Assembly (NCBI GenBank): GCA_028281525.1
Contig: JANQJR010000056.1
Span: 1-50,215, forward strand
Origin: Magnetovibrio sp.
GTDB lineage: Bacteria > Pseudomonadota > Alphaproteobacteria > Rhodospirillales > Magnetovibrionaceae
Reading direction: 5' to 3'
Length of the DNA stretch: 50,215 nt
The notes beneath the pieces were generated by a model that did no database searches, was not told where the DNA came from, and saw only the letters and a list, made by a program, of their open reading frames with translations. A program made the translations under genes and the position numbers. This document shows positions 6,358 through 46,494 of this stretch, piece by piece (the first letter of the stretch is position 1; each line of letters opens with the position of its first letter).

Positions 6358-6434
6358 CGGAGCGTAGCGCAGTCTGGTAGCGCACTACACTGGGGGTGTA
6401 GGGGTCGTAGGTTCGAATCCTATCGCTCCGACCA
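6358..6434 (+). tRNA. tRNA-Pro (anticodon GGG)
   Basis: 77 bases including an encoded CCA. The acceptor arm CGGAGCG pairs with CGCTCCG. The D-arm AGCGCAGTCTGGTAGCGC and the T-arm GTAGGTTCGAATCCTAT are canonical. The anticodon stem CTACA/TGTAG encloses the loop CTGGGGG, which gives anticodon GGG. A promoter lies upstream and a perfect hairpin follows at 6440. Confidence 0.97.
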
Positions 6435-6510: not shown

Positions 6511-6993
6511 TTAACCGACATCAGCAGGCATGCGCGGGTGCCACGGCGGCGAGGCCACCGCGTAGGAAATCACGCCCTCAGTCAGGCTTTTAAGTTCATC
6601 GAAGGTGGTTGCGATCAGGCATTTGGCATTGCCCGCCCGGGAATACAGCAGATCGAAACGCTTCAAACTGGCGTCCAGAATGGTCGGCACGTTCTCCGCC
6701 AACTCCAGGGGAAACAGACTGTCGATGCCCGCGCCGATCAGCGCTTCGATGGCGTCCGCGCTTAGCAATTCGGCCTCGCCCTTGGCGTTCAGCACCTTTG
6801 AAACCTGCTCGGCATCGCAGGCTTTGTCGCCGGCCATCAGGACCAGGATAGCCTGTCCTTCGACAGAACAGAGCAGAGGATTGATGACCGCACCTTCCTC
6901 GACGTCCAATTCCCCCGCAATGTCTGCGACGGAGCGCGACGGCGTGGTGAGAATGTGGATGTTGTCCAACAGTTCGCTGAGGGTGACAGACAT
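6511..6993 (-). CDS. YbaK/prolyl-tRNA-editing-domain protein
   Basis: 160-residue protein. The C-terminal two thirds match the YbaK/ProX deacylase fold: VEGQAILVLMAGDKACD, the helix before ELLSADAIEALIGAGIDSLFP, and NVPTILDASLKRFDLLYSRAG. Family members hydrolyse mischarged Cys- or Ala-tRNA(Pro) and related species; here the substrate is not predictable. The first 30 residues are outside the core and look like a short winged-helix-like stretch (SVADIAGELDVEEG). The ATG at 6993 is chosen because upstream in-frame starts lack a ribosome site. It converges on a tRNA-Pro gene, which may be coincidence. Confidence 0.75.
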   Translation of the reverse strand: MSVTLSELLDNIHILTTPSRSVADIAGELDVEEGAVINPLLCSVEGQAILVLMAGDKACDAEQVSKVLNAKGEAELLSADAIEALIGAGIDSLFPLELAENVPTILDASLKRFDLLYSRAGNAKCLIATTFDELKSLTEGVISYAVASPPWHPRMPADVG

Positions 6994-7563
6994 GTGTGCA
7001 CCGGCTCTCTGGATCATGTGCGCGGTCAAACAAGCTGGGTCGAGCAACTTGAGTTGCAAATCTTGAAATGCGTGTCCCCACGTATGCACGGAATGCATGC
7101 ACGGGGCGCGAATCGCCCACCCCCAAAAGGCTACACATGCGAATCAGAATTACAATAATCAATTTAGCGTATTTTAAAATCAAATACTTGCGCCAAACCG
7201 ACAAAAAACCGTTCTTAATTTTCCCGGGCGGTTTGCGCTGGCTTTGAGGCGATGAAAGTTTCAGGCTCCTAAATTCCACGTTCTTCACGCCAGGTGAACA
7301 TGGCCGCGGTTCATGCATTTCATTTTTCATGTTTTACTTTAAGAAAGACTATTTTTACCTATTTTTTCAATTTATTAAGAGGCGTATCCTTCTGTTTTCC
7401 TGATGCTGACAGGAATCGGTCTTGCGCTGCGGCATTTTATGCCCGTGTATACAGGGATCCTATTTCGTCGACACACCTTTGGCGCCGAGAAACACGGACT
7501 CCAGCCATCAATTCTTATTTTTCAGTGACCGATGCCGTTTTGCCGCACGTATGGCGGTGAGCG

Positions 7564-7654
7564 GACAAGAAGAGGCCGGTTGAACGCGATGCCAACCGGC
7601 CGGAGTTTGTGCTCTTGAGGGAAGGGAAAGGCTCGCAATGAGCCCATCCACAAT
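7564..7654 (-). ncRNA. Small RNA candidate B, second tandem copy
   Basis: It shares a perfectly identical 52-base core with candidate A (7603-7654 here, 7751-7802 there, offset 148). Read on the minus strand, the core contains a short hairpin GGCTC-ATTGC-GAGCC, then a pyrimidine tract TTTCCCTTCCCTC, and then AAGAGCACAAACTC. It closes with its own terminator (stem GGCCGGTTG/CAACCGGCC at 7574-7601, then a TCTTCTT tail). A perfect CRP-type box lies upstream. The terminator arms differ in sequence from copy A but keep the fold. No coding potential is seen in the core. The 5' end is not determined. Confidence 0.7.
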
Positions 7655-7685
7655 TCCCACTTTGGCAGATCCGAAGCAAGCTGGC

Positions 7686-7701
7686 TGTGACGCACGTCAC
7701 A
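7686..7701 (-). promoter_or_regulatory. CRP-type palindrome ahead of small RNA B
   Basis: TGTGACGCACGTCACA matches the CRP consensus TGTGA-N6-TCACA exactly and is flanked by C and G that extend the palindrome. Its centre is 41.5 bases from the ATTGTGG of the RNA core, the same distance as in copy A. Confidence 0.75.
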
Positions 7702-7716
7702 GGACGATAATTTCCC

Positions 7717-7802
7717 AAAAAAGGAGCCGGCCACGCACGGCGACCGGCTCGAGTTTGTGCTCTTGAGGGAAGGGAAAGGCTCGCAATGAGCCCATCCACA
7801 AT
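7717..7802 (-). ncRNA. Small RNA candidate A, first tandem copy
   Basis: It has the same 52-base core as candidate B, with the GGCTC/GAGCC hairpin and the exposed TTTCCCTTCCCTC tract. It ends in a textbook terminator on the minus strand: GAGCCGG (7744-7750) pairs with CCGGCTC (7724-7730), followed by six T (7717-7722). Candidate promoter elements on the minus strand are TTGTAT and CATTGT, 18 apart; copy B has TTGCTT and AATTGT at the same spacing. Both are weak, as expected if an activator is needed. The expected RNA is about 75-85 bases. The pyrimidine tract could pair with Shine-Dalgarno sequences of target mRNAs. Confidence 0.72.
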
Positions 7803-7833
7803 GCCCACTCTGGCAATTTTCATACAAGTTGAC

Positions 7834-7849
7834 TGTGACGCGCATCACA
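7834..7849 (-). promoter_or_regulatory. CRP-type palindrome ahead of small RNA A
   Basis: TGTGACGCGCATCACA, again an exact TGTGA-N6-TCACA, extends to the 22-base imperfect-centre palindrome 7831-7852. It could also act on the plus-strand gene at 7993, whose possible -10 (7903-7908) places the box near -73. Confidence 0.75.
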
Positions 7850-7992
7850 GTCTTAAAAATTCTTGAGCTATCAATGAACTATTGCAGGCGCGCAAAGTGC
7901 GCTATGATTTCTTTCAGAGCTTGTGCATGAAGCTCTCATATCTCTCATAAGAGGATTCTCTCACGTACGCCTTCGTAATGGGAAGCACGCAC

Positions 7993-8346
7993 ATGAACGA
8001 AGATTATGGTGACGACTATAAAAAGATGATGAACCAAAAGCGGTTCCTGAATGACATCGAACAGGGAATCCGCATCGCAAACCGGGAAATCATTCACGCG
8101 AAACTACCAGCGCTGAATAAGGATACGGTGCTCGCGTTCGCCGTGGCCATCGCCCGGTTGCGTGCGCGCTATCTGCAAGCGGCCTTCCGTGCAGCGGAAA
8201 CCGATCGAGGCGAACCTCTGGACCAAAGCGAGGTCAACCAACTGCGCACGCATCGCGAATCATATGAAGAAACGAAAGCCGCTTTCGAAGCACTGCGCTA
8301 CGCCATCGAACAAGGCTATGTGGATGTCGAAGTCGACAAAGAGTAA
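7993..8346 (+). CDS. Uncharacterised small helical protein
   Basis: 117 residues; I do not recognise the family. The sequence is soluble, strongly charged and mostly helical: KMMNQKRFLNDIEQGIRIA, then IIHAKLPALNKDTVLAFAVAIARLRARYLQAAF, and then YEETKAAFEALRYAIEQGYVDV. It has no cysteine pairs, signal peptide or membrane segment. Two in-frame ATGs exist, at 7978 and 7993; the second is preferred because GGGAAG lies ten bases before it. The gene stands alone. The CRP-type box at 7834-7849 lies on its upstream side and could control it together with the divergent small RNA. Confidence 0.6.
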   Translation: MNEDYGDDYKKMMNQKRFLNDIEQGIRIANREIIHAKLPALNKDTVLAFAVAIARLRARYLQAAFRAAETDRGEPLDQSEVNQLRTHRESYEETKAAFEALRYAIEQGYVDVEVDKE

Positions 8347-23435: not shown

Positions 23436-23597
23436 TATCTGGCCTTCCATCTGGGGGGGCCTTTGGAGGGAGGTGCCGAAGGGGCGCGATCTAGACGCGC
23501 ACGGCGTTTTCCATACAGCAGGCCTACATGGATTAAAAAAGGTCCGATCCGGCACTCCACCGGCGCGGATGATAATGTTTAACGTAGGGAAGCAACC

Positions 23598-23852
23598 ATG
23601 GCTTCGGAAAAATCACAGAACGTCCAAGACGTCTTTCTCAATCACATTCGCAAACAAAAAACGCCCGTGACCGTGTTCCTGGTCAACGGCGTCAAGCTGC
23701 AAGGCATCGTCACGTGGTTCGACAACTTCTCGGTGCTGTTGCGCCGGGACGGTCACACACAGCTTGTTTACAAGCACGCCATCTCGACGATCATGCCGTC
23801 GCAACCGATTCAGCTCTTCGAACCGGAAGTCGCAGCCGGAGCTGAGGAATGA
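23598..23852 (+). CDS. hfq: RNA chaperone Hfq
   Basis: 84-residue Sm-like hexameric protein that pairs small RNAs with mRNAs. It contains Sm1 ([23 protein letters not shown], read as [10 protein letters not shown] and [13 protein letters not shown]) and Sm2 ([13 protein letters not shown]). The residues that bind uridine-rich 3' ends (Gln8-type, Phe42-type, KHAIST) are all in place. It is followed by hflX, the classical partner. A GGGAAGCAACC ribosome site precedes the ATG. Its presence in the same window as three small-RNA candidates is circumstantial but fitting. Confidence 0.97.
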
Positions 23853-45597: not shown

Positions 45598-45914
45598 TGC
45601 AGACTCCGTTCTGTGTGAATTTATCCAAGTTCACGAAGCCTCCGTGGATCCGCCAAGATTTCGGAGGCTTCATCTATTTCAGCGCCAAGGAATGTGGGAA
45701 AGCCATCCCTATAGCCGTCATGCCGCTCAAAAAGAGGCGCGGCAAAATCGGAACAAACGCACACCGAAAAGCGTGCGAACAAACCGATCAAAGCTCTGGA
45801 TGGAAACTGTCGAACACGACAAAAAAAAATCCCACCACAGCGACACAAAACGCGTCACCACAATGGGTAGCCATGCCTTCAAACCTTCCCGTGTGAAGGA
45901 CGGGTAACGCTGAC

Positions 45915-46085
45915 GGTGGCAGGTCTCCTGACTTGCGGGTCTCAGCTAATCGGTTCGATCTTCCCGGCTGTTGTGCACTGGCCAGTGATCCTTCTTAGAA
46001 CCGACGCTTTCCGCTTACAGTTGCGGGGGCAGTGCTGGATTTTCACCAGCTTCCCATTTTCAGCCCGAACGATGTTCGGGCCACC
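45915..46085 (-). promoter_or_regulatory. Cobalamin (adenosylcobalamin) riboswitch controlling the B12 operon
   Basis: Read on the minus strand, the complete class-I cobalamin aptamer is present: GGGAAGCTGGTGAAAATCC, then the B12 box region ACTGCCCCCGCAACTGTAAG, then GCCGGGAAG, and near the end GACCCGCAAGTCAGGAGACC. P1 closes with GGTGGC (46080-46085) pairing with GCCACC (45915-45920). It lies 318 bases upstream of the btuB start codon in the sense direction. B12 binding normally shuts expression down. The whole operon from btuB to cbiZ should respond. Confidence 0.97.
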
Positions 46086-46494
46086 AACGTCTGATCGCGT
46101 TTTAATACAACATCCGTAAAGTGTCAAATCCGTATTTCAGGAAGTTCGCCTTAATCTCTTGATATTTCATCATATAATTCTGCATATGGCTGGTAATTTC
46201 TCTCGCGCAATACCGCGCCTTGTGGTGCTTGCAATAAAAAAGAGCAGGGGACAAACCAGCCAACGATACGATCCAGCCAGGCTGTGTTGTGTTGGGAGCA
46301 GATAGCCAACACGCCGAAACATGTTGTGGACGTTTCGGGATTGCTGGAGCTTTCGGCCTGACCAGACACCACCACGATAACGCACGTTTCGCCGCAGGTG
46401 GTGTGCGGACCGGAGTGCCCACGCACCCGGGGCTACCTAAGTCCCATGGCGAACTTCCCGGAGAGAGGCACTATTTTTAGGCGGGGGATATTCC

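Follow-up and report, generated by a model that had tools for sequence, protein, structure and literature searches.

Tandem copies of a predicted CRP-activated small RNA gene in Magnetovibrio sp. and their relatives in Rhodospirillales

The window analyzed here, that is, the whole stretch of 50,215 bases from Magnetovibrio sp. (a genus assigned by NCBI to Rhodospirillales), carries on its minus strand two identical copies of a 52-nt core (7751-7802 and 7603-7654), which are arranged head to tail and lie 148 bp apart; the perfect twin claimed in a preliminary description of this DNA was thus confirmed to the base. Identity between the core copies ends exactly at both 52-nt borders, and the whole tandem repeat, including the box upstream, comprises 108 nt with 86% identity. 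An exact TGTGA-N6-TCACA palindrome precedes each core at the same 148-base offset, as had also been noticed (Table 1), and these are the only two such boxes in the window, against a mean of 0.02 in shuffled windows. As shown by the terminator scan, each copy ends in an intrinsic terminator of its own, with CTTTTTT after the stem in copy 1 and TCTTCTT in copy 2; the terminator regions of the two copies are only 43% identical, yet both fold, in keeping with the earlier statement that the stems differ while the fold is kept. R1, a covariance model built on the transcript without the box (described below), matched copy 1 at 7717-7804 (77.5 bits) and copy 2 at 7566-7656 (68.8 bits). A search of the organism's own genome at E 0.001 gave no further copy, and R1 listed only these two there.

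In the family to which the window belongs, the sRNA adjoins a conserved ORF of 122 amino acid residues, and a gene with a tRNA-editing domain and a tRNA gene are located past the terminator. The hfq gene reported about 16 kb away was recovered as an Hfq-like frame; its proximity has no weight as evidence. The window also contains a cobalamin riboswitch (45901-46103, minus strand, 121.7 bits).

Table 1. Coordinates of the twin sRNA genes and neighboring features in the window, and loci of the f23 copies discussed in the text.
Feature	Position	Strand	Basis or remark
Copy 1 CRP-type box, TGTGATGCGCGTCACA	7834..7849	-	Exact palindromic half-sites
Copy 1 putative extended -10, TGC-CAGAGT	7807..7815	-	Box centre at -41.5 (from the inferred start); position fits family profile
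Copy 1 predicted sRNA, ~84 nt	7717..7800	-	Start inferred at 7800 from promoter spacing
Copy 1 predicted 5' hairpin	7773..7797	-	Fold and covariation of family helix
Copy 1 conserved CCCTCAAGAG, proposed pairing tract	7760..7769	-	Conservation and predicted exposure
Copy 1 intrinsic terminator stem, then T tract	7724..7750	-	Terminator scan
Copy 2 CRP-type box, TGTGACGTGCGTCACA	7686..7701	-	Exact palindromic half-sites
Copy 2 putative extended -10, TGC-CAAAGT	7659..7667	-	Box centre at -41.5 (from the inferred start); position fits family profile
Copy 2 predicted sRNA, ~88 nt	7565..7652	-	Start inferred at 7652 from promoter spacing
Copy 2 predicted 5' hairpin	7625..7649	-	Fold and family covariation
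Copy 2 conserved CCCTCAAGAG, proposed pairing tract	7612..7621	-	Conservation and predicted exposure
Copy 2 intrinsic terminator stem, then TCTTCTT	7574..7601	-	Terminator scan
Neighboring 122-aa ORF without Pfam match	7978..8346	+	Similar ORF adjoins sRNA in several family relatives (by reading)
Aminoacyl-tRNA editing domain gene	6511-7098	-	Adjoins tRNA gene 6358-6431 (+)
Hfq-like ORF	23583-23852	+	Motif and reading
f23 copies	G039: L348, L349, L159/L351, L237; G059: L350, L239/L352

When the DNA was searched against 60 genomes (its own and relatives), strong matches were obtained in the genus, the family and the order, and at E 1 a total of 51 genomes were positive, mostly weakly; 27 of the 28 cores read have a box of at least 9/10 within 140 nt upstream. 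When the species collection was scanned for box and core together, 41 stretches were returned, of which 40 look real on reading; the remaining one (L070, from a record titled Acidobacteria and lacking a terminator) was rejected as a chance match. The record titles are mostly Rhodospirillales, Rhodospirillaceae, Magnetovibrio or Thalassospiraceae, some of the others being given just as Alphaproteobacteria or Proteobacteria and one as Rhodobacterales. The 56 distinct cores were reduced to 53 by dropping L070, L039 (cut by the end of a contig) and L034 (lacking a T tract under the rule applied), and R1 was built from the alignment of 46 of these 53 extracted sequences after seven with a divergent 5' part (L019, L023, L024, L028, L040, L057, L065) had been left out. 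CCCTCAAGAG served as the search string for the extracted set, and its invariance there is by construction.

The preliminary description had proposed a covariance search in related genomes. With R1, matches of at least 40 bits were obtained in 85 of 297 Rhodospirillales genomes, representing 18 of 31 families. At E 0.01 the number rose to 177 of 297, with alphaR8 RNAs and unrelated terminators, judged by reading, at the weak end. Among 385 genomes drawn from the class, none that belongs to another order reached 40 bits (best 39.3, without the core), so that in this sample the family does not extend beyond the order; in searches spanning more than 40 genomes the filters were stricter and some weak matches were lost. 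The core or a close variant is present in 62 of the 80 regions fetched from R1 matches. A recurrent terminator of the AAACTT-GGCCGG type also gives weak R1 matches (L153, L156, L157, L158, L222, L243), where the gene before it ends, as read, in LFPF. Against Rfam 15, no match at gathering score was found in the twin-sRNA region, and at E up to 10 only low-scoring sX11, plastid group II intron, RF00519, snoZ242 and SrbA were listed, which agrees with the earlier failure to assign a named family. The open-licence papers searched yielded no description of the core, of a crp-downstream sRNA or of an order-level equivalent. Judged by its sequence, this would be a familiar kind of regulator, a CRP-activated sRNA, in a family that is new to Rfam 15 and to the literature searched and whose promoter signature is unusually clear.

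The consensus structure predicted by RNAalifold consists of a 5' hairpin and the terminator, with double changes at 13 of the 14 pairs. The alignment cells were paired in 95.1% of cases versus 84.1% in shuffles, none of 500 shuffles reached the observed value on any of five measures, and paired cells dropped to 63.6% or below when the structures were slid. Covariation of the terminator helix is expected; the 5' helix covaries too, at five of its six pairs (91.3% paired). Across the 66 ensembles of single sequences, UUCCCUCAA was exposed, with a mean unpaired probability of 0.61-0.85 per base, the GAG that follows it was less exposed (0.31-0.41), and CACAAACU was exposed again. The previously described order of a small hairpin and then an exposed tract therefore held as to exposure, with the correction that the hairpin sits inside the 52-nt core. 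Comparison of the aligned sequences thus points to an RNA with a conserved fold and conserved ends.

The promoter region was analyzed by aligning 64 promoters on the box; of 73 cores with a terminator, 69 had a box of at least 8/10, and 64 of these entered the profile. The four without such a box were L024, L106, L163 and L164; L106 belongs to another order and adjoins a glmS-like end (by reading), and L024 and L164 have exact boxes farther upstream. The box-to-minus-10 spacing was fixed in the 64 promoters: counted from the box centre, position +30.5 is A in 87% and position +34.5 is T in 90%. If the box is centred at -41.5, a value that rests on an inferred transcription start, these positions fall at -11 and -7; position -14 is G in 68%, and around -58 to -64 the sequence is rich in A/T. 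The -10 elements of the window copies match TATAAT at only 3 to 4 of 6 places. Judged from the sequence, box and -10 spacing have the layout of a class II CRP promoter. Since many of the profile loci had been found through the box, the box is not independent evidence there; the -10 spacing is.

The box was examined separately in the 80 regions, which were taken down the ranked R1 list from places outside the set collected earlier. A box of at least 8/10 was found at 57 of the 62 core loci, 33 of them exact, against 81 of 1240 shuffled controls at this level and 2 of 1240 at 9/10; when the 10 loci also found by the box pattern were removed, 47 of 52 retained such a box (23 exact). The cores selected by R1 that lack it are L163, L197, L229, L230 and L245. 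Three of these (L229, L230, L245), with a well kept core and no recognisable box, are among the four loci read in family f11, the fourth (L206) having a box of 9/10. Family f4 has its box at a greater distance upstream, some 140 nt from the core (L353, L164). At alphaR8/mmgR control loci of the same order, the box was found in 0 of 15 (at best 7/10), five of the original 20 loci having no 10-mer and not being counted.

The organism's own genome has 10 HTH_Crp_2 matches, eight above the cut-off, and six PF00211 cyclase domains. One of the proteins (L182) combines a cyclic-nucleotide domain with TRETVAR in the recognition helix, which we take to resemble the helix of E. coli CRP. This CRP is the candidate regulator; alternatives in the genome are a second CRP/FNR-type protein with REVVAR (L178) and five further CRP/FNR-type proteins. 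The linkage to crp was evaluated at 172 loci with a core-like site and a terminator, duplicates included, with flanks of 0.3-8 kb. In 22 genomes of families f5, f14, f17, f19 and f22, the sRNA is directly preceded on its own strand by the orthologue of L182, and the core lies 87-369 bp beyond the end of the crp match; in two of them (G287 and G233) the core is the variant TCCTCCAGAG. The crp matches that span nearly the whole protein are 51-62% identical, with TRETVAR in each match listed. At two loci (L065 3005-3862 and L024 604-2026) the sRNA is flanked on the same strand by crp and by a CheY/DivK-like gene (names by reading). The preliminary description had named conserved flanks around a core that is not conserved as a finding against it; the opposite was seen, in that the neighbors of the sRNA differ between families while core, box and fold stay. 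Because core and box are retained at loci with altered flanks, and because crp adjoins the sRNA in 22 genomes, the gene and its proposed control by CRP, which that description had put forward as a duplicated pair, are strongly supported by comparison across genomes.

Tandem arrangement is found at five of the 13 loci read in the window's family, with a spacing of 136-175 bp. The twins are mutually closest in G000, G008 and G013 (identity 78, 71 and 94%), but not in G003 and G017. A single shared origin of the twins was rejected as the simple explanation in view of the latter two genomes, and duplication or conversion has probably happened more than once; branch support is weak for both points.

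Potential targets were sought in the same genome with a 14-nt seed at up to 2 mismatches; of 16 places, two were the sRNA genes themselves and the other 14 showed no convincing start region. The pattern CTTGAGGGA-N2-10-ATG gave 45 matches in 21 genomes versus 11 when the pattern was reversed; this control is a poor one, since the Shine-Dalgarno layout is lost on reversal. Among the 30 matches read, only a STAS gene recurs, in 3 genomes. Its start region contains TGAGGGAA in four of six members of the genus and a one-base variant in a fifth. The same TGAGGGAA is present in all six members at the start of an MlaD-like gene of the same cluster (names by reading), where it forms the coding end of the preceding gene; this stretch is absent from the 20 other genomes fetched. 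No target site recurs beyond the genus, and the STAS and MlaD-like genes are weak target leads only. The crp start region would form a weak duplex with the sRNA (-14.7 kcal/mol).

Taken together, the locus likely carries the same sRNA gene twice in tandem; the product, about 85 nt long, would be activated by CRP and act in trans, probably with the assistance of Hfq. Each copy would be transcribed from its own class II promoter, with the box at -41.5 and an extended -10, and would be ended by its own intrinsic terminator; CRP charged with cyclic nucleotide, presumably cAMP, would cause both copies to be made. The exposed UUCCCUCAAGAGC between the two hairpins may then bind mRNAs at their purine-rich ribosome-binding regions, probably with Hfq as the platform, and repress them, and the twin may serve dosage. 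The base-pairing role is suggested by the exposed pyrimidine tract and by likeness to the alphaR8 RNAs. CyaR of Escherichia coli is a CRP-activated, Hfq-type sRNA that represses mRNAs, and the logic proposed here is alike; no sequence relation was found to CyaR, which is not among the Rfam matches and whose host belongs to a different bacterial class. For CyaR we know of no tandem copies and no crp linkage. According to excerpts of PMC10127613, promoter activity of SMelC181 in Sinorhizobium meliloti falls in a mutant of the CRP-like gene clr, so that this too is an alphaproteobacterial sRNA gene with a CRP-like-dependent promoter; it is compared here by description, and it belongs to another order, with a Clr that differs from the CRP read here.

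The closest known relatives in design are the alphaR8 RNAs (RF00519), namely MmgR of Sinorhizobium meliloti and SisA-D of Caulobacter crescentus. As described in the excerpts available (PMC12559287, PMC7143759), they are about 77-90 nt long, with a weak 5' hairpin, a C/U-rich single-stranded tract whose 10-mer UUUCCUCCCU is used for pairing, and a Rho-independent terminator, and they sometimes occur in several copies per genome. The window sRNA has the same plan of hairpin, tract and terminator, and a rival reading is that it is a divergent alphaR8 branch that was duplicated, gained CRP control and acts as alphaR8 RNAs do. The weak R1 matches in other orders, which include mmgR-like RNAs, favor this, and so do the f23 copies (four in G039 and two in G059), which join a box of 9-10/10 to the exact UUUCCUCCCU and CAAGA. 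With RF00519, three of these copies reach 31.6-37.4 bits. The f23 copies have almost no 5' hairpin (by reading), and among the family copies read the exact 10-mer was found only in them; a fifth G039 copy (L347) lacks the box. By sequence, the f23 copies are a possible bridge between the two families. However, copy 1 scores only 16.3 bits with RF00519 against a gathering cut-off of 41, copy 2 does not appear among the matches up to E 10, and both read CCUUUCCCUUCCCUC in place of the exact 10-mer. At least 23 genomes hold both RNAs at separate places; the own genome has an RF00519 match just above the cut-off (42.1 bits; L173 1454-1531, minus strand, contig C43), with a 10-mer departing from consensus (GCCCCCCUUG), near a glmS-like frame by reading. 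The box found at none of the 15 control loci likewise separates the two, and according to PMC12559287 the upstream regions of SisA-D have no motif in common, unlike the CRP box with its fixed spacing here. The usual N-formylglutamate amidohydrolase neighbor of alphaR8 was seen neither beside the window copies nor, as read by eye, in the relatives of the new family, and the 3' likeness is weak because AAACTT and GGCCGG-type stems are common among terminators in these genomes. A divergent alphaR8 branch is therefore a rather doubtful explanation.

It is less probable still that the sRNA works chiefly through another RNA or a protein, as a sponge or by sequestering an RNA-binding protein, rather than on mRNAs. 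The weak target signal, the RF00519 RNA in the same genome and the pairing of the alphaR8 RNA SisA with the sRNA CrfA (PMC12559287, in excerpt) are in its favor, but the tract is exposed and complementary in kind to ribosome-binding sites, and a search of the own genome that allowed 0 or 1 mismatch over 14 nt returned no complementary partner other than the sRNA loci. That the repeats are promoter-terminator debris, the leader of a downstream gene or a small coding gene is very improbable. Two overlapping frames of 102 and 108 amino acid residues do span the copies, so that the earlier remark on the lack of a notable open frame needs correcting for the locus itself; it stands for the family, in which no reading frame is conserved. 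No ATG precedes the core in 24 of 69 sequences and no ATG frame reaches it in 26 of 69; the frames that do reach it use all three phases, one phase being commoner than the others (24 sequences). The promoter layout and terminator of each copy, and the constancy of core, box and fold beside variable neighbors, also argue against this explanation.

On the preferred reading of a CRP-activated sRNA, the family could be a crp-linked riboregulator of the Rhodospirillales, a proposal that we regard as quite possible and put forward tentatively. The gene would ancestrally have stood directly downstream of crp as a class II CRP-activated, repressive arm of the CRP regulon, would have arisen from or converged on the alphaR8 design, with the f23 copies as intermediates, and would have left crp in several families and been repeatedly tandem-duplicated in the window's family. 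CRP-controlled sRNAs seem to be best studied in enteric bacteria; the present family would be a CRP-type sRNA across an alphaproteobacterial order, recognisable by sequence alone, and its control by CRP would be predictable genome by genome because the promoter layout is so constant. Through the f23 copies, the question of how the widespread alphaR8 RNAs acquire new inputs becomes approachable. If the proposal is true, carbon status and post-transcriptional control would be connected, in a directly testable way, in magnetotactic, marine and soil Rhodospirillales.
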